Source: Acetomicrobium flavidum (GTDB lineage: Bacteria > Synergistota > Synergistia > Synergistales > Acetomicrobiaceae). From it: a stretch of 50,000 bases of DNA. The translations under genes and the position numbers were made by a program. This document shows positions 18,242-22,047 of this stretch, in pieces. Each line of letters opens with the position of its first letter. The stretch's first letter is position 1. Location of the stretch: the NCBI RefSeq assembly GCF_900129645.1, contig NZ_FSQZ01000001.1, positions 1,395,001 through 1,445,000 on the forward strand, in the 5' to 3' direction. The notes beneath the pieces are model-generated. The model was not told where the DNA came from. It searched no databases and was given only the letters and a program-made list of their open reading frames with translations.

Positions 18242-18307
18242 TTTTCTTAAAACGTTGGATACATTCGAATTCGACTTTCGACTAATTTTTAAATTGTTTT
18301 AAGAAAA
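18242..18307. repeat. 12-bp inverted repeat upstream of the GntR gene
   Basis: TTTTCTTAAAAC (18242-18253) and GTTTTAAGAAAA (18296-18307) are perfect inverted copies 42 nt apart. The right arm reaches the Shine-Dalgarno sequence of the GntR gene. It may be two half-operators for looping by the GntR protein, or a long-range RNA stem that hides the RBS. The rest of the 195-nt gap is AT-rich, with a small dyad CGAATTCG near 18265 and no clear promoter. Confidence 0.45.
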
Positions 18308-18322
18308 GGAGGCACAAAAAGC

Positions 18323-18976
18323 GTGCTGGATGAAATGCCCTATAGGAGCATTGCGGGGGCTGTTAAGGAAAGGCTAATGGTCGAGATCTTGTTTTCAGAT
18401 AAATACAAGCCCGGCGAGTGGATTAACGAATCTGTCATTGCAAAGGAGCTTAACGTCAGCAAAGCTCCGATCAGAGAGGCACTGAGAGAGCTCGCAGCAA
18501 TCGGTATTGTGGAAATTGTACCCCATAAAGGTGCTAAAATAACGCAATTTAGTAAAGAAGACATGGAAGAAATATATACAATTCGATATTTGCTTGAAGA
18601 GCGCATATTTAATGATTTGATCAGTAGAGATGCATTATCTCAAGAGGATATAAATCATTTAAAAAGACTAGTTCAAGAGATGAAAGAAGTTATTCTTTTA
18701 AACACTCCAGGAAAGCCTATATTAGGTAATTTTCTTTTAAAAGATCTAGAATTTCATAAATATCTTTGGTCCAAGTCAAATCTTAAATGGACCGTAAAAG
18801 TGCTTCTTGACATTTACCTCCTATTAATTTTAGGAATGTACAACTTCCTTATGGATGCAGATTTAATCAAGACCTATGAGTATCATGTCAGGATAATAGA
18901 TTACTTAAAAGCAAAAGATATAGAACAATTCAAAAAAGATAGATCGGAAAGTTATTATACCTTGAGAAGGCACTAG
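18323..18976 (+). CDS. GntR-family transcriptional regulator (FadR/FCD type)
   Basis: 217-aa regulator. The N-terminal winged helix has GEWINESVIAKELNVSKAPIREALREL in its central part (about residues 33-60), followed by a helical FCD ligand-binding domain with EIYTIRYLLEERI and the metal-type histidines FHKYLW and YEYHVRIID. FCD regulators usually sense small carboxylic acids, which suits the adjacent dehydratase and lyase genes; it is probably the local switch for them. GTG at 18323 follows AAAGGAGG; ATG three codons later is possible. The coding sequence for the FCD domain is distinctly AT-rich (54 G/C in 180 bases, 18541-18720), unlike the genes downstream. The dehydratase gene begins 22 nt after the stop. 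Confidence 0.88.
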   Translation: MLDEMPYRSIAGAVKERLMVEILFSDKYKPGEWINESVIAKELNVSKAPIREALRELAAIGIVEIVPHKGAKITQFSKEDMEEIYTIRYLLEERIFNDLISRDALSQEDINHLKRLVQEMKEVILLNTPGKPILGNFLLKDLEFHKYLWSKSNLKWTVKVLLDIYLLLILGMYNFLMDADLIKTYEYHVRIIDYLKAKDIEQFKKDRSESYYTLRRH

Positions 18977-18998
18977 ATTATCGGGAGGGATATGCAAA

Positions 18999-20258
18999 AT
19001 GGGAAGAACAGTAACTGAGAAGATCCTTGCTGCTCATTGTAAACAAGGAAATTTCAAACCGGGCGATATCATCGACGTAGATGTGGACTTGCTTTTGATG
19101 AACGATATAACGGGACCCGTTGCCGTCGAAGTATTTAATAAGATGGGGGATGGTGACGTCTTCGATAAAAACAAAATAGTGGTGGTGTTGGATCATTTTA
19201 CTCCAAACAAGGATGTCACTTCCGCAAAACTTTCAAAGACCATGCGCGATTTCGTTGCAGAAAAAGGGATATGTCATTTTTATGATGCTGGTTACGGAAT
19301 AGAGCACGTTGTTCTCCCGGAGGACGGCTTGGTAAAACCTGGCGATTTGGTGATAGGCGGCGATTCTCACACGGTAACCCATGGTGCTTTGGGAGTTTTT
19401 TCCACGGGGATGGGCAGTACCGATGTGGCAGGAATCATGGCCTTGGGCAAGACATGGCTCAAGGTTCCAGAGCAAATGAAGGTGTTGCTGGTAGGGGCTC
19501 CTGGTAAATGGGTCTCGGGCAAAGATGTAATACTTTACGTAATATCGATGATAGGCACAGATGGAGCCCTGGGAAAGTCCTTGGAGTTTGATGGTGTAGG
19601 CGCTAAATATATGGATATGGATTCCCGTTTTACCATTTGCAATATGGCAGTCGAGTGCGGAGCCGTTAATGGCATATTTGCCTTTGATGAGGTCACCAAG
19701 AAGTTTGTGGATGCTTTGGGATTGCGAGATTACAAGGAATACAAGAGCGACGCTGATGCCATATACAAAAAAATCATCGATGTGGACTTAAGCGAGCTTG
19801 AACCAATGGTGGCCATGCCTCATTTGCCTTCGAACGCTAGGCCCGTTACGGAGGTAGGTGACATCAAGATCGATCAAGTGTTCATAGGCTCGTGTACTAA
19901 CGGTCGCATAAAGGATTTACGCATTGCTGCAGAGATAGTTAAAGGCAAAAAGGTGCACCCTAGCGTAAGAGGATTGATTGCACCGGGCAGCAGGAAGGTA
20001 TTTGCTCAGGCATTGAAGGAGGGTTTGATCGAGACTTTTACCGATAGCGGATTTACCATATTGCCTCCGGGTTGTGGTCCTTGTTTCGGTGGACATTTGG
20101 GCATCTTGGCCAAGGGAGAACGGTGCGTTTCCACGACTAACAGAAATTTCGTAGGTCGTATGGGAGACAAGGAAAGCGAAGTTTACCTGGCAAATCCTGC
20201 GATAGCAGCAGCTTCGGCGGTAGCCGGAAGATTGGTTCATCCTGCAGAGGTGATGTGA
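18999..20258 (+). CDS. Aconitase-family dehydratase, large subunit (LeuC/HacA/DmdA type)
   Basis: 419-aa [4Fe-4S] hydro-lyase large subunit. The cluster cysteines are C299 (GSCTNGR), C359 and C362 (PPGCGPCFGGH). Other family blocks present are GDSHTVTHGALG and NRNFVGRMG. The 419-aa length matches the short LeuC/HacA group that pairs with a separate swivel subunit. Such enzymes isomerise isopropylmalate, homocitrate or citramalate, or hydrate dimethylmaleate. No leuA, leuB or homocitrate synthase gene is beside it; instead an isocitrate-lyase-family enzyme follows. That context resembles dmdA of Eubacterium barkeri and argues for a degradative role, but substrate choice cannot be settled by eye. 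Confidence 0.85.
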   Translation: MGRTVTEKILAAHCKQGNFKPGDIIDVDVDLLLMNDITGPVAVEVFNKMGDGDVFDKNKIVVVLDHFTPNKDVTSAKLSKTMRDFVAEKGICHFYDAGYGIEHVVLPEDGLVKPGDLVIGGDSHTVTHGALGVFSTGMGSTDVAGIMALGKTWLKVPEQMKVLLVGAPGKWVSGKDVILYVISMIGTDGALGKSLEFDGVGAKYMDMDSRFTICNMAVECGAVNGIFAFDEVTKKFVDALGLRDYKEYKSDADAIYKKIIDVDLSELEPMVAMPHLPSNARPVTEVGDIKIDQVFIGSCTNGRIKDLRIAAEIVKGKKVHPSVRGLIAPGSRKVFAQALKEGLIETFTDSGFTILPPGCGPCFGGHLGILAKGERCVSTTNRNFVGRMGDKESEVYLANPAIAAASAVAGRLVHPAEVM

Positions 20259-20259
20259 G

Positions 20260-20757
20260 ATGAAAATAAAGGGAAGAGCTTTAAAATATGGCGACCACGT
20301 GAATACGGACGTCATAATTCCGGGAGCATACTTGAGCCTTACTGATCCAAAAGAACTGGCAAAGCACTGCATGGAAGGAATAGACCCTGATTTTCCCAAA
20401 AAAGTCAAAGCTGGTGACATAGTCGTGGGAGGCGTAAACTTTGGATGCGGATCCTCCAGAGAGCATGCGCCGATGGCTCTTAAGGGATGTGGGGTAGGTG
20501 CTGTAGTAGCGAAGAGCTTTGCTGCCATATTTTATCGCAACGCAATTAACATTGGACTGCCACTCATAGAATGCCCTGAAGCAGTCGACGAGACGGATGA
20601 AGGCGATGTTTTGGAAATAGATATGGACCTTGGTGTGCTTCAGAATATCACCAAAGGTAGAAGTTATCAGATTCCTTCGCTGCCTGAATCCATCAAAGAC
20701 ATACTAAGCCTTGGCGGTTTAATTGAATATGTGAAAAACATGAAGGGAAGGGCGTAA
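20260..20757 (+). CDS. Aconitase-family dehydratase, small (swivel) subunit (LeuD/DmdB type)
   Basis: 165-aa partner of the large subunit, beginning one base after its stop codon. It has the swivel-domain signatures DHVNTDVIIPGAYLSL and FGCGSSREHAP (about residues 60-70) and AKSFAAIFYRNAINIGLPL. In archaeal enzymes the loop after the first strand reads YLRT in isopropylmalate isomerases and YLV-x in homoaconitases (recalled from literature). Here the same place reads YLSL, which fits neither well and supports a different substrate. The gene is tightly packed within the operon, and the lyase starts 2 nt after its stop. Confidence 0.85.
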   Translation: MKIKGRALKYGDHVNTDVIIPGAYLSLTDPKELAKHCMEGIDPDFPKKVKAGDIVVGGVNFGCGSSREHAPMALKGCGVGAVVAKSFAAIFYRNAINIGLPLIECPEAVDETDEGDVLEIDMDLGVLQNITKGRSYQIPSLPESIKDILSLGGLIEYVKNMKGRA

Positions 20758-20759
20758 AT

Positions 20760-21641
20760 ATGGGCAAGACCGAGAGCGTTCGCAAGCGGTTTGCGACAAT
20801 GTTAGAAGATGATGGGATAATCGTCGCACCTGGCTGTTATGATGCATTGTCCGCCCGCATCATCGAGGCTACAGGGCATGAATGTGCATATATGACGGGA
20901 TTTGGAACTTCGGCAAGCTTGCTTGGTTTGCCAGACATGGGCTTTATAACGATGTCCGAGATGATAGATAATGCCCGACGCATAGCAGGGGCAGTAAATA
21001 TACCGGTAATTGCTGATGCCGATACCGGTTATGGTAATGCCCTGAACGTATGTAGAACTGTACGCGAGTATGAACAAAGTGGCGTTGCGGCCATCCACAT
21101 AGAGGACCAGACATTTCCTAAACGTTGCGGTCATCTCGAAGGCAAAGAAGTTGTAAGCTCAAGTGAGATGGTCCAAAAGATAAGGGCAGCCTGCGACGCC
21201 AGGACCGACCCTAATTTTAAGATTATAGCAAGGACTGACGCTAGGGCAGTAATGGGATTGGAGGAATCGATAAGGCGTGCCCGGGAGTATTATGATGCTG
21301 GAGCTGATGTCATCTTCGTAGAGTCTCCATACAGCGCAGACGAGTTTAAACAAATATCGGAAGAGCTGAAAGGCATACCTCTTTTAGCCAATATGGCCGA
21401 GGGTGGAAAGTCTCCCATGCTTTCCGCTGATGAGCTTGAAAGGTTAGGGTACAAGATAGTCATATTTCCCGTGGGGTTGCTATTTTCTGCCACCAAAGCG
21501 ATGTATTCTCTGGCAGAGGAGATAAGGGTCAAGAAAACCGATAGGGACGTTCAGGATCAAATGTGGTCCTTCAAACAGTTCACGGATTTTATAGGAGTTT
21601 CAAAGTGCAATGAGCTTTCGCAGAAATATAAGACCAACTGA
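20760..21641 (+). CDS. Isocitrate lyase/PEP mutase superfamily lyase (2,3-dimethylmalate lyase or 2-methylisocitrate lyase type)
   Basis: 293-aa TIM-barrel enzyme, the length of PrpB/Dml. Mg2+ and substrate residues are visible in DADTGYGNALN (about residues 82-92), HIEDQ (about 114) and the catalytic loop PKRCGHLEGKEV, with C123 as the acid. KRCGH marks true C-C lyases and separates it from PEP mutase and phosphonopyruvate hydrolase. Likely reactions are 2,3-dimethylmalate to propionate plus pyruvate, or 2-methylisocitrate to succinate plus pyruvate. With the adjacent two-subunit dehydratase and no methylcitrate synthase, the first is preferred; this is inference. The Shine-Dalgarno GAAGGGAAGGG lies inside the upstream gene. 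It ends at a shared bidirectional terminator. Confidence 0.85.
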   Translation: MGKTESVRKRFATMLEDDGIIVAPGCYDALSARIIEATGHECAYMTGFGTSASLLGLPDMGFITMSEMIDNARRIAGAVNIPVIADADTGYGNALNVCRTVREYEQSGVAAIHIEDQTFPKRCGHLEGKEVVSSSEMVQKIRAACDARTDPNFKIIARTDARAVMGLEESIRRAREYYDAGADVIFVESPYSADEFKQISEELKGIPLLANMAEGGKSPMLSADELERLGYKIVIFPVGLLFSATKAMYSLAEEIRVKKTDRDVQDQMWSFKQFTDFIGVSKCNELSQKYKTN

Positions 21642-21702: not shown

Positions 21703-22047
21703 TTATTTTTTTGCTATGACAGCGAAAAATACCAGCGGAACGTCGCCGATATTTTTTATGCTATGGGACATTCCCTTGCGCGTCAATAAGATATCCCCTG
21801 GATTTACTTCAATTTCGGTGCTGCCATCGGTAAGTAGCCCCTTGCCTGACATAATTGCGTAAACTTCCTCATCATCCGTGTGCTCGTGAAGGCCTATGGA
21901 CGCTCCGGGATCAAGCTCTATGCGAGAAGCCATCTTGATGGCCCCTTTGTCGTCGGGGATGGGTACGTAATAAAAAGCTATCTTGCCCTTTCCGCCGCGC
22001 ATATTCTCGCGAATTACTTGTTCGCTTGATTGTTTCAAGATTGTCAT
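21703..22047 (-). CDS. Small cupin-domain protein
   Basis: 114-aa single-cupin protein. Metal-binding motif 1 is GLHEHTDDEEVYAIMSGKG (about residues 52-70) and motif 2 is PGDILLTRKGMSHSIKN (about 83-99), giving a likely 3-His/1-Glu metal site. No specific function can be assigned; such proteins may be isomerases, dioxygenases or sugar/metabolite sensors. The ATG follows GGGGAGGTG by nine bases. It begins 27 nt after the PEP synthase stop on the same strand and is probably co-transcribed with it, so a link to pyruvate/PEP metabolism is possible but unproven. It ends at a terminator shared with the convergent lyase gene. Confidence 0.8.
   Translation of the reverse strand: MTILKQSSEQVIRENMRGGKGKIAFYYVPIPDDKGAIKMASRIELDPGASIGLHEHTDDEEVYAIMSGKGLLTDGSTEIEVNPGDILLTRKGMSHSIKNIGDVPLVFFAVIAKK

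Follow-up and report, generated by a model that had tools for sequence, protein, structure and literature searches.

The four-gene cluster described here, from the heat-loving anaerobic bacterium Acetomicrobium flavidum, probably encodes a GntR-regulated module in which a dehydratase descended from a leucine isomerase works together with a lyase on a branched malate (C5–C7). Within the 50 000-nucleotide stretch of DNA analysed (the window), the plus strand carries in succession genes for a GntR/FCD-family transcriptional regulator (18323..18976, 217 aa, GTG start), a LeuC-type large subunit of an aconitase-superfamily dehydratase/isomerase (18999..20258, 419 aa), a LeuD-type small subunit (20260..20757, 165 aa) and an ICL/PEPM-superfamily C–C lyase (20760..21641, 293 aa), their Pfam families being GntR plus FCD, Aconitase, Aconitase_C and PEP_mutase/ICL in that order. 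The intergenic gaps are 22, 1 and 2 nt, exactly as given in the original prediction. Family searches named RACo-like, Hcp, MATE, cupin, PEP synthase and PFOR proteins as neighbours, with leuA, leuB and citrate synthase absent among them. This operon context, together with the lack of citrate synthase and PrpF-family proteins (see below), supports the earlier view of a regulated, probably catabolic unit of dehydratase and C–C lyase that stands alone.

We infer the catabolic direction, substrate class, products and regulation of the module as follows. LeuCD, a predicted heterodimeric [4Fe-4S] hydro-lyase, would hydrate a cis-alkylmaleate or shift the hydroxyl of an alkylmalate, yielding a 2-hydroxy acid of the substituted-malate type (C5–C7). 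The lyase would then cleave the C2–C3 bond of the substituted malate in a Mg-dependent, retro-aldol-type reaction, releasing a 2-oxo acid (probably pyruvate) and a short carboxylate such as propionate. Candidate substrates are dimethylmaleate/2,3-dimethylmalate, citraconate-derived methylmalates, or another. The dehydratase itself probably derives from a Synergistota leucine isopropylmalate isomerase whose specificity would have shifted, the clearest sign being the change from Thr/Ser to Leu/Ile at residue 27 of the loop. PEP synthase and PFOR, encoded downstream of the cluster, and the absence of any citrate synthase family protein favour the module, as does the fermentation of malate and tartrate by A. 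mobile, described in one report (PMC3739175).

Conservation of the cluster provides further support. The LeuC–LeuD–lyase triplet is intact in all four other Acetomicrobium genomes with a close LeuC copy (G011, G012, G014 and G015) and also in loci L018, L019 and L043, which may repeat some of these genomes. In two relatives, A. hydrogeniformans (L018) and G015 (L135), the gene order is gntR–lyaseB–sodium:solute symporter–leuC–leuD–lyaseA, an arrangement that makes the triplet look catabolic. Neither the symporter nor the second lyase is in the A. flavidum cluster, and lyaseB was found nowhere else in that genome; no transporter is therefore tied to the cluster, which weighs against the module. 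Across Synergistota the co-occurrence is more than chance: when 118 lyase places were compared with 69 LeuC places, 32 of the former began no more than 6 kb from one of the latter (21 genomes, 10 genera), while a hand estimate for random placement gives 1–2. LeuCD–lyase pairs with other LeuCD types occur at eight loci of Burkholderiaceae and one of Rhodospirillales. In G173 and G179 a LeuCD in the leucine operon (L139/L138) coexists with another at a separate site, linked to a lyase and accompanied by genes for transporters (L120/L119). These observations argue for the module reading. Against it, of the 38 loci retrieved through their similarity to the lyase, some of them on short contigs, 13 contain a LeuC relative and 25 show none in the stretch covered.

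The original prediction took the cluster to be the terminal part of the nicotinate branch, a descent that is not supported as written: the large subunit LeuC (Pfam Aconitase, 367 bits) falls among the leucine-operon LeuCs of Synergistota, on the leucine side of branches starred 100/96 and 100/99 in two trees, where the leucine side of the former comprises 55 rows (31 of leucine context, 8 of lyase context and 16 unlabelled). Its score against TIGR02083 is 588.2 (cut-off 610.65), a threshold also missed by the leucine-operon LeuC of G179 (606.1) and passed by the lyase-linked LeuC of G173 (662.9). The original prediction had been staked on the dehydratase not grouping with leucine-pathway enzymes as the genome's only leuCD; LeuC does group with them, whereas its being the only set holds just in part, given a LeuCD-type set at C1:1850151. 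The window LeuCD is thus like the Synergistota leucine-operon LeuCDs in this grouping and in LeuC identity (47–57% to the 31 leucine-context LeuCs), but differs from them in lying away from leuA and leuB, in having Leu27 for Thr/Ser and in having Ala for Arg in the ARIF motif.

The last two differences lie in the small subunit, which scores 229.3 against TIGR02084 (cut-off 245.85, missed also by the leucine-operon LeuD of G004 at 245.3). Its YLSL loop (20329–20340) comprises residues 24–27. Among 160 columns of LeuD, a single one separates seven lyase-linked rows (Leu/Ile) from 30 leucine-operon rows (Thr in 20, Ser in 9, Val in 1), namely position four of YLxx, the substrate-recognition loop. 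This comparison was drawn up once the pattern had been noticed, and the seven rows represent three lineages only. The contention that this loop is unlike that of leucine-operon LeuDs is borne out by the separating column. At the ARIF-motif position all five Acetomicrobium rows have Ala, and 65 of 66 other rows have Arg; this and the change at loop residue 27 suggest, from sequence comparison, an altered specificity. The HacB loop of M. jannaschii is YLRT, and the window loop has no Arg. The location of the single column within a loop that sets substrate preference, according to PMC7308503, counts towards the module.

The lyase retains every catalytic residue checked (PrpB-numbered D58, D85, D87, E115, K121–H125, R158, E188 and N210), its KRCGH loop (21120–21134) being residues 121–125, but reaches no lyase equivalog cut-off in NCBIfam. 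Its best match there is TIGR02317 prpB (308.0 bits, cut-off 354.4), and it stays far below the PEP mutase cut-off (TIGR02320, 141.6, cut-off 319.55) and also misses those for phosphonopyruvate hydrolase (TIGR02321, 130.1, cut-off 374.4) and CPEP mutase (TIGR02319, 285, cut-off 420.05). By sequence it is nearest to petal death protein (246.9 bits; oxaloacetate hydrolase, 186.6 bits). Both petal death protein and PrpB are closer to it than oxaloacetate decarboxylase is; a grouping with oxaloacetate decarboxylase or PEP mutase types would have told against the original prediction. The AlphaFold model (pLDDT 93.8) gives Z scores of 39.7 for oxaloacetate hydrolase, 38.9 for petal death protein and dimethylmalate lyase (a lead of under 1), 38.4 for PrpB and 37.4 for PEP phosphomutase. 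The fold and checked catalytic residues are therefore common to the group formed by petal death protein, 2,3-dimethylmalate lyase, oxaloacetate hydrolase and PrpB, although neither the structure comparison nor the sequence tree, with its weak backbone, places the window lyase with any known lyase; in that tree the A. niger dimethylmalate lyase (3fa3) stands apart from it. At PrpB position 212 the window lyase has Ala, the three PrpB/methylisocitrate-lyase-type references all have Thr, petal death protein has Ile and dimethylmalate lyase has Val. Taken with the LeuD loop lacking Arg, Ala in place of Thr212 would favour a substrate with an alkyl side group over one with a third carboxylate.

Isopropylmalate isomerase activity in this genome may likewise come from the window LeuCD. 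The ilv–leu operon (C1:920–926 kb) reads ilvN–ilvC–leuA–leuB–ilvB and has no leuCD, from which it follows that the window LeuCD may also serve leucine synthesis; the G179 leucine operon holds leuCD at the very place left empty in Acetomicrobium. The ilv genes exceed their cut-offs, and the LeuBs of this operon match isopropylmalate dehydrogenase best, below its cut-off (335 versus 393); the A. flavidum genome has two Iso_dh-family genes (922 and 1729 kb). Its sole leuA (C1:923–925 kb) is split by a one-base deletion, the gene being intact in three of the four genus genomes that have it, and the G014 LeuA passes the leuA_bact cut-off (691.3 versus 598.7). The four LeuC-family matches in A. flavidum (G000) are the window LeuC, the second set at C1:1850151 and two aconitases of ~650 aa. 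The window type is the only leucine-type leuC seen in G000 and in G012 (both matches listed for the latter); G014 and G015 have two weaker LeuC matches each beyond the matches listed. Retention of leuA and leuB with no other leucine-type leuC seen, like the LeuC grouping, speaks against the module. So does G013 (89% complete), in which leuA, leuB, the IlvD-family match present in five of six genus genomes and the window-type LeuCD are all absent, a joint loss that a leucine role predicts.

We tentatively entertain, as a possibility overlapping with the module, that the GntR-controlled LeuCD both feeds the lyase and supplies the cell's isopropylmalate isomerase. A conserved, catabolic-looking operon alongside kept leuA and leuB is consistent with such dual use; the altered specificity suggested by the LeuD loop and the ARIF-position Ala argues against it, and the set at C1:1850151 could be the isomerase instead. 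A bolder and rather doubtful scenario is that a Synergistota leucine isopropylmalate isomerase was turned, possibly repeatedly, into a lyase-feeding alkylmalate dehydratase via one loop residue, after which the Acetomicrobium leucine operon would have lost leuCD and borrowed the GntR-controlled catabolic enzyme.

It is unlikely that LeuCD is simply the relocated leucine-pathway isomerase of Acetomicrobium, with the lyase an unrelated neighbour. The LeuC grouping, the empty place in the ilv–leu operon, the G014 LeuA score and the IlvD distribution, including G013, all fit this explanation. However, LeuCD shares its operon with the lyase and gntR, joined by a symporter in relatives; each context has its own copy in G173 and G179; residue 27 of the loop departs from the leucine type; the TIGR02083 and TIGR02084 cut-offs are missed, as they are by some leucine-operon proteins; leuA is split in A. 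flavidum and the LeuBs fall below their cut-off; and G011 (80% complete) has LeuCD with no leuA or leuB found.

By family, the window cluster resembles that of Eubacterium barkeri, where DmdAB is a dimethylmaleate hydratase and Dml a 2,3-dimethylmalate lyase: in both, a two-subunit aconitase-family dehydratase adjoins an ICL/PEPM C–C lyase. That the cluster forms the terminal branch of nicotinate fermentation, acting on the same substrates, is quite improbable, even with the non-Thr, aliphatic residue at lyase position 212 that dimethylmalate lyase and petal death protein share. The methylitaconate isomerase of E. barkeri is of the PrpF family, and no PrpF protein (PF04303) was found in the A. 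flavidum genome (control found in 2 of 14 genomes); the window LeuC is of leucine-type grouping; and all six MoCoBD places in the genome lie in long single frames (770–943 aa), unlike the split nicotinate dehydrogenase of E. barkeri described in PMC5746545. Two of these six Mo-hydroxylase-type proteins exceed an aldehyde oxidoreductase cut-off; the other four come closest to xanthine dehydrogenase models without reaching their cut-offs. The assertion that nicotinate genes are not visible thus stands for PrpF, while a nicotinate hydroxylase may yet be among those four proteins. A 2-methylisocitrate lyase branch, within a methylcitrate cycle or fed by imported methylcitrate, is highly improbable: although prpB is the best NCBIfam match and PMC11982470 describes KRCGH as the canonical motif of PrpB, the lyase is below the TIGR02317 cut-off and has Ala for Thr212, the LeuD loop has no Arg, a search of the genome for methylcitrate synthase returned no PF00285 protein (control found in 13 of 14 genomes), and matches to the HMGL family comprise both pieces of leuA plus a third, unassigned place.

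The set at C1:1850151 belongs to a second cluster (C1:1843.8–1860.6 kb) with MmgE/PrpD-type proteins, an AtuA-like protein, LeuCD, TAXI-TRAP and two lyases. It is like the window cluster in combining a LeuCD-type set with ICL/PEPM lyases, and includes a transporter, but its LeuCD is of a different, also lyase-linked family with loop KYTK and its lyases fall in another subgroup.

LeuCD-like and PrpB-like genes are usually read as leucine or methylcitrate enzymes. Recurring beyond a single phylum and often accompanied by a transporter, the LeuCD–lyase pair marks a pathway for branched dicarboxylic acids that carries no assignment yet. A genuine specificity switch at the loop residue would provide a one-residue rule separating leucine isomerases from catabolic dehydratases, and would make Acetomicrobium a test case for an enzyme common to breakdown and synthesis. 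In the bolder scenario above, one enzyme would link branched-acid breakdown with leucine synthesis.

The regulator (Pfam GntR 43.6 bits, FCD 29.5 bits) reaches no NCBIfam equivalog cut-off; copies 69–71% identical to it head the cluster in L018, L135 and L136. A candidate operator/promoter element, CGAATTCGANYTTCGA (18266..18281, plus strand), lies 41 nt upstream of its start codon and is conserved in all four aligned Acetomicrobium upstream regions. It is the sole match in the window at up to two mismatches, where shuffled controls gave a mean of 0.22 matches (20 of 100 shuffles with at least one). Exact copies occur in four of 174 loci, namely L001, which is the window site itself, L018, L135 and L136.

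Gene calling in the Acetomicrobium flavidum genome (G000; 2.02 Mb, 3 contigs, 99.87% complete) confirmed the four plus-strand genes and the gaps between them claimed in the original prediction, namely gntR (18323-18976), a leuC-like gene (18999-20258), a leuD-like gene (20260-20757) and a lyase gene (20760-21641), with Pfam and NCBIfam concordant on the families. Judged from sequence, the best reading is a GntR-controlled LeuCD-lyase pair for a branched C5-C7 dicarboxylate. Under GntR control the enzymes would act as a pair, in which LeuCD, going by its family, would hydrate or isomerise a branched dicarboxylate (C5-C7, unsaturated or carrying a hydroxyl), after which the lyase, again by family, would cleave the LeuCD product to yield a 2-oxo acid together with a short carboxylate; PEP synthase and PFOR encoded nearby fit, weakly, pyruvate as a product. 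The proposal of a stand-alone catabolic unit was supported by a symporter and a second lyase (lyaseB) in the operon of two relatives (loci L018 and L135), and by the lack of any PF00285 protein in G000.

The LeuC-LeuD-lyase triplet is kept together in loci L018, L019 and L043 and in the Acetomicrobium genomes G011, G012, G014 and G015, L018 and G014 probably representing one and the same genome; the Synergistota LeuC search found no close copy of the window LeuC in G013 (89% complete). Both L018 (A. hydrogeniformans) and L135 (G015) have the order gntR-lyaseB-sodium:solute symporter-leuC-leuD-lyaseA, lyaseA being the type found in the window. In G012, gntR and lyaseB precede leuC by ~14 kb and the intervening stretch holds TRAP genes, DctM among them, and L043, near-identical to G012, carries IS21- and IS1182-type transposase genes directly before leuC. 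The window copy has neither lyaseB nor a symporter between gntR and leuC, and lyaseB is absent from the lyase matches of G000 (three places genome-wide). A 16-nt element, CGAATTCGANYTTCGA, is kept upstream of gntR in all four copies aligned and occurs once in the window, at 18266-18281, making it a candidate operator. The window, L018, L135 and a further Acetomicrobium copy (L136) share an Hcp gene upstream of gntR, and only in the window does a MATE gene stand between the two. Downstream, a cupin and PEP synthase are found in the window, L018, L019, L043 and L135, followed in the window by PFOR. The window cupin (21703-22047, minus strand) is a small single-domain protein with weak likeness to oxalate decarboxylase cupins (26 bits), and adjoins the lyase in the four other loci as well.

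The window lyase is 77-78% identical to those of A. hydrogeniformans and two Acetomicrobium MAGs, its nearest named loci, and <=50% identical to those of most other loci; on this basis G000 belongs with Acetomicrobium. Alignment revealed every catalytic residue checked, KRCGH included, at positions chosen from PrpB and ICL structures. PrpB position 212, which, judging from ICL structures, presumably reads the third carboxylate, is Ala in the window lyase, Thr in the Escherichia coli, B. pseudomallei and B. anthracis references, Ile in petal death protein and Val in dimethylmalate lyase. The lyase tree (22 rows, weak backbone) did not place the window lyase. By sequence score the best solved chain was petal death protein (246.9 bits), followed by methylisocitrate lyase (217.2 bits), dimethylmalate lyase (215.4 bits), oxaloacetate hydrolase (186.6) and an oxaloacetate decarboxylase (147). 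An AlphaFold model (pLDDT 93.8) matched oxaloacetate hydrolase at Z 39.7, petal death protein and dimethylmalate lyase at 38.9, PrpB at 38.4, a PEP phosphomutase at 37.4 and oxaloacetate decarboxylase at 33.5; the modelled structure does not clearly favour any one of the four best matches. A PEP mutase/phosphonopyruvate type was rejected by profile scores against their cut-offs.

For the dehydratase, the LeuC tree (72 rows) joined the five Acetomicrobium LeuCs (100/100) and placed them with leucine-context LeuCs on one side of a branch marked 100/96, a side of 55 rows (31 in leucine context, 8 in lyase context, 16 unlabelled), apart from both the isomerases of Methanocaldococcus jannaschii and the other LeuCD-type set that G000 carries. 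The joint LeuC and LeuD tree (47 rows) is concordant with this placement (100/99), and the LeuD-only tree is poorly resolved. All trees were midpoint-rooted, a clade being one side of a branch; the LeuC-only and LeuD-only trees leave out eight repeat loci (two of these, L056 and L059, being presumed rather than established copies of L019 and L043), and the joint tree also drops four divergent loci and thins two near-copy groups. As far as sequence can tell, the window dehydratase is of leucine kinship. Its next relative is the lyase-linked LeuC of G179 (94/54 in the LeuC tree, 86/68 in the joint tree, on long branches), and the lyase-linked LeuC of G173 is placed with other leucine rows (93/88; 90/86). 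A constraint joining all seven lyase-linked rows was not firmly rejected (AU p 0.064), and one origin is therefore indistinguishable from several. Both G173 and G179 hold a leucine-operon LeuCD (L139 and L138, respectively) plus a lyase-linked pair (L120 and L119).

Passages of PMC7308503 describe a five-residue region in the small-subunit loop that sets substrate preference. The column of window LeuD residue 27 is T (20), S (9) or V (1) in 30 leucine-operon rows and L (2) or I (5) in seven leucine-type lyase-linked rows from three lineages, a comparison that omits L140 (tagged lyase-linked, but adjoining leuB and with the leucine-type loop YLVT), lyase-linked LeuDs of other families (L008, L151, L021 and eight Burkholderiaceae rows) and context-unlabelled rows. 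In a scan of every usable LeuD column (160), not of the loop alone, residue 27 was the only one separating both sets; three LeuC columns (26, 45 and 77) do likewise. The window LeuD loop has no Arg, in contrast to the M. jannaschii homoaconitase small subunit with YLRT. In the ARIF motif of LeuD, Ala is present in all five Acetomicrobium rows and Arg in 65/66 other rows. Two further loci, L142 (G004) and L145 (G119), each have a pair of LeuC-type genes adjacent to a pair of LeuD-type genes, with loops YLPL and YCAT, respectively, in the one LeuD read from each; these represent additional unassigned LeuCD types.

Leucine synthesis may well depend on the window LeuCD, because the Acetomicrobium ilv-leu operon (ilvN-ilvC-leuA-leuB-ilvB, with ilv genes above cut-offs; in G000 at L017:8207-14201, i.e. 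C1:920.2-926.2 kb) has no leuCD and no other leucine-type leuC was seen. G179 has the same order but with leuC and leuD between leuA and leuB. No second leucine-type leuC was found in G000 or G012 (both G012 matches examined), nor among the matches listed for G014 and G015, which leave out two weaker ones each. LeuA of G014 scores above the leuA_bact cut-off (691.3 vs 598.7); for the LeuBs of G014 and G000 the best model is isopropylmalate dehydrogenase, below cut-off (about 335 vs 393). Intact leuA is present in G012, G014 and G015, and was not found in G011 or G013; in G000 it lies in two frames owing to a one-base deletion relative to the G014 gene, either real or an assembly error. The leuB of this operon was found in G000, G012, G014 and G015, and an IlvD-family match in 5/6 Acetomicrobium genomes, G013 having no IlvD-family match, leuA, leuB or window-type LeuCD. 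The argument, drawn from six genomes of which three are <90% complete (80, 87 and 89%), is suggestive only, and the window dehydratase perhaps still has a leucine job.

Judged from the PrpF-family and MoCoBD searches of G000, a role in a nicotinate branch is unlikely. Descent from that of Eubacterium barkeri (DmdAB/Dml), as originally envisaged, was not borne out, the dehydratase being of leucine kinship. A profile search found no PrpF-family protein in G000. The six MoCoBD places of G000, two above an aldehyde oxidoreductase cut-off and four nearest xanthine dehydrogenase models but below cut-off, are all in single frames, whereas passages of PMC5746545 describe the nicotinate dehydrogenase of E. 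barkeri as divided between two peptides. Passages of PMC3739175 describe fermentation of malate and tartrate, and use of leucine, by A. mobile, and name no branched dicarboxylate. The methylcitrate cycle as main role was rejected because a profile search found no citrate synthase-family protein (PF00285) in G000, where the HMGL family is matched only by the two fragments of leuA and by one other, unassigned place.

LeuCD-lyase pairing extends beyond the window. A second such cluster in G000 (L008:5806-17898 and L009:7636-8562, i.e. C1:1843.8-1860.6 kb) holds three proteins of MmgE/PrpD type (Pfam recognises two of them, similarity the third), an AtuA-like protein, LeuC-LeuD, a TAXI-TRAP transporter and two more KRCGH lyases, a gene set identical in kind to that of G180 (L151); in other genera LeuC and lyase lie about 4.5-5.2 kb apart, which suggests this layout there too. 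Across 185 Synergistota genomes, LeuC matches at 1e-75 occur in 162 and lyase matches at 1e-40 in 59. Of 118 lyase places, 32 (21 genomes, 10 genera) start <=6 kb from one of 69 LeuC places entered by hand, where random placement would give 1-2 by hand estimate; the count takes in some opposite-strand lyase clusters beside a leucine operon with no shared operon (L124, L134). In L123, L124, L126 and L134 (G101, G041, G040 and G028), a lyase-TRAP cluster lies close to a leucine operon but on the other strand, and includes an HpaI-like aldolase, recognised in L124 and L134 by profile scan below cut-off and in the rest by eye. Related lyase clusters of G179 and G031 contain an HMG-CoA-lyase-family protein and a CoA-transferase of CaiB type, which comes closest to the succinyl-CoA:mesaconate CoA-transferase model but scores below cut-off, neighbours that suggest organic-acid catabolism and do not fix the substrate.

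Outside Synergistota, other LeuCD types form LeuC-LeuD-lyase runs in eight Burkholderiaceae/Polynucleobacter loci, a lyase-LeuC-LeuD order in a Rhodospirillales MAG and a convergent LeuCD/lyase pair in a Natronomonas MAG. A LeuC relative is present in 13 of the 38 loci retrieved by lyase similarity and absent from 25, most haloarchaeal ones included. No description of the pair in Acetomicrobium was found in the open-licence papers searched; the passages of PMC7609661 concern isocitrate lyase. The lyase beside LeuCD in a Polynucleobacter locus (L040:7962-8870) carries KRCAQ, not KRCGH, and its catalysis is possibly altered or lost. Elsewhere in G000, L010:3831-12643 (C1:1721.8-1730.6 kb) encodes GntR, an AtuA-like protein, a TctCBA-like transporter (identified by eye), a single-chain aconitase and an isocitrate-type dehydrogenase. 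The set resembles a cluster for taking up and oxidising tricarboxylates, in a genome that has no citrate synthase of the PF00285 family.
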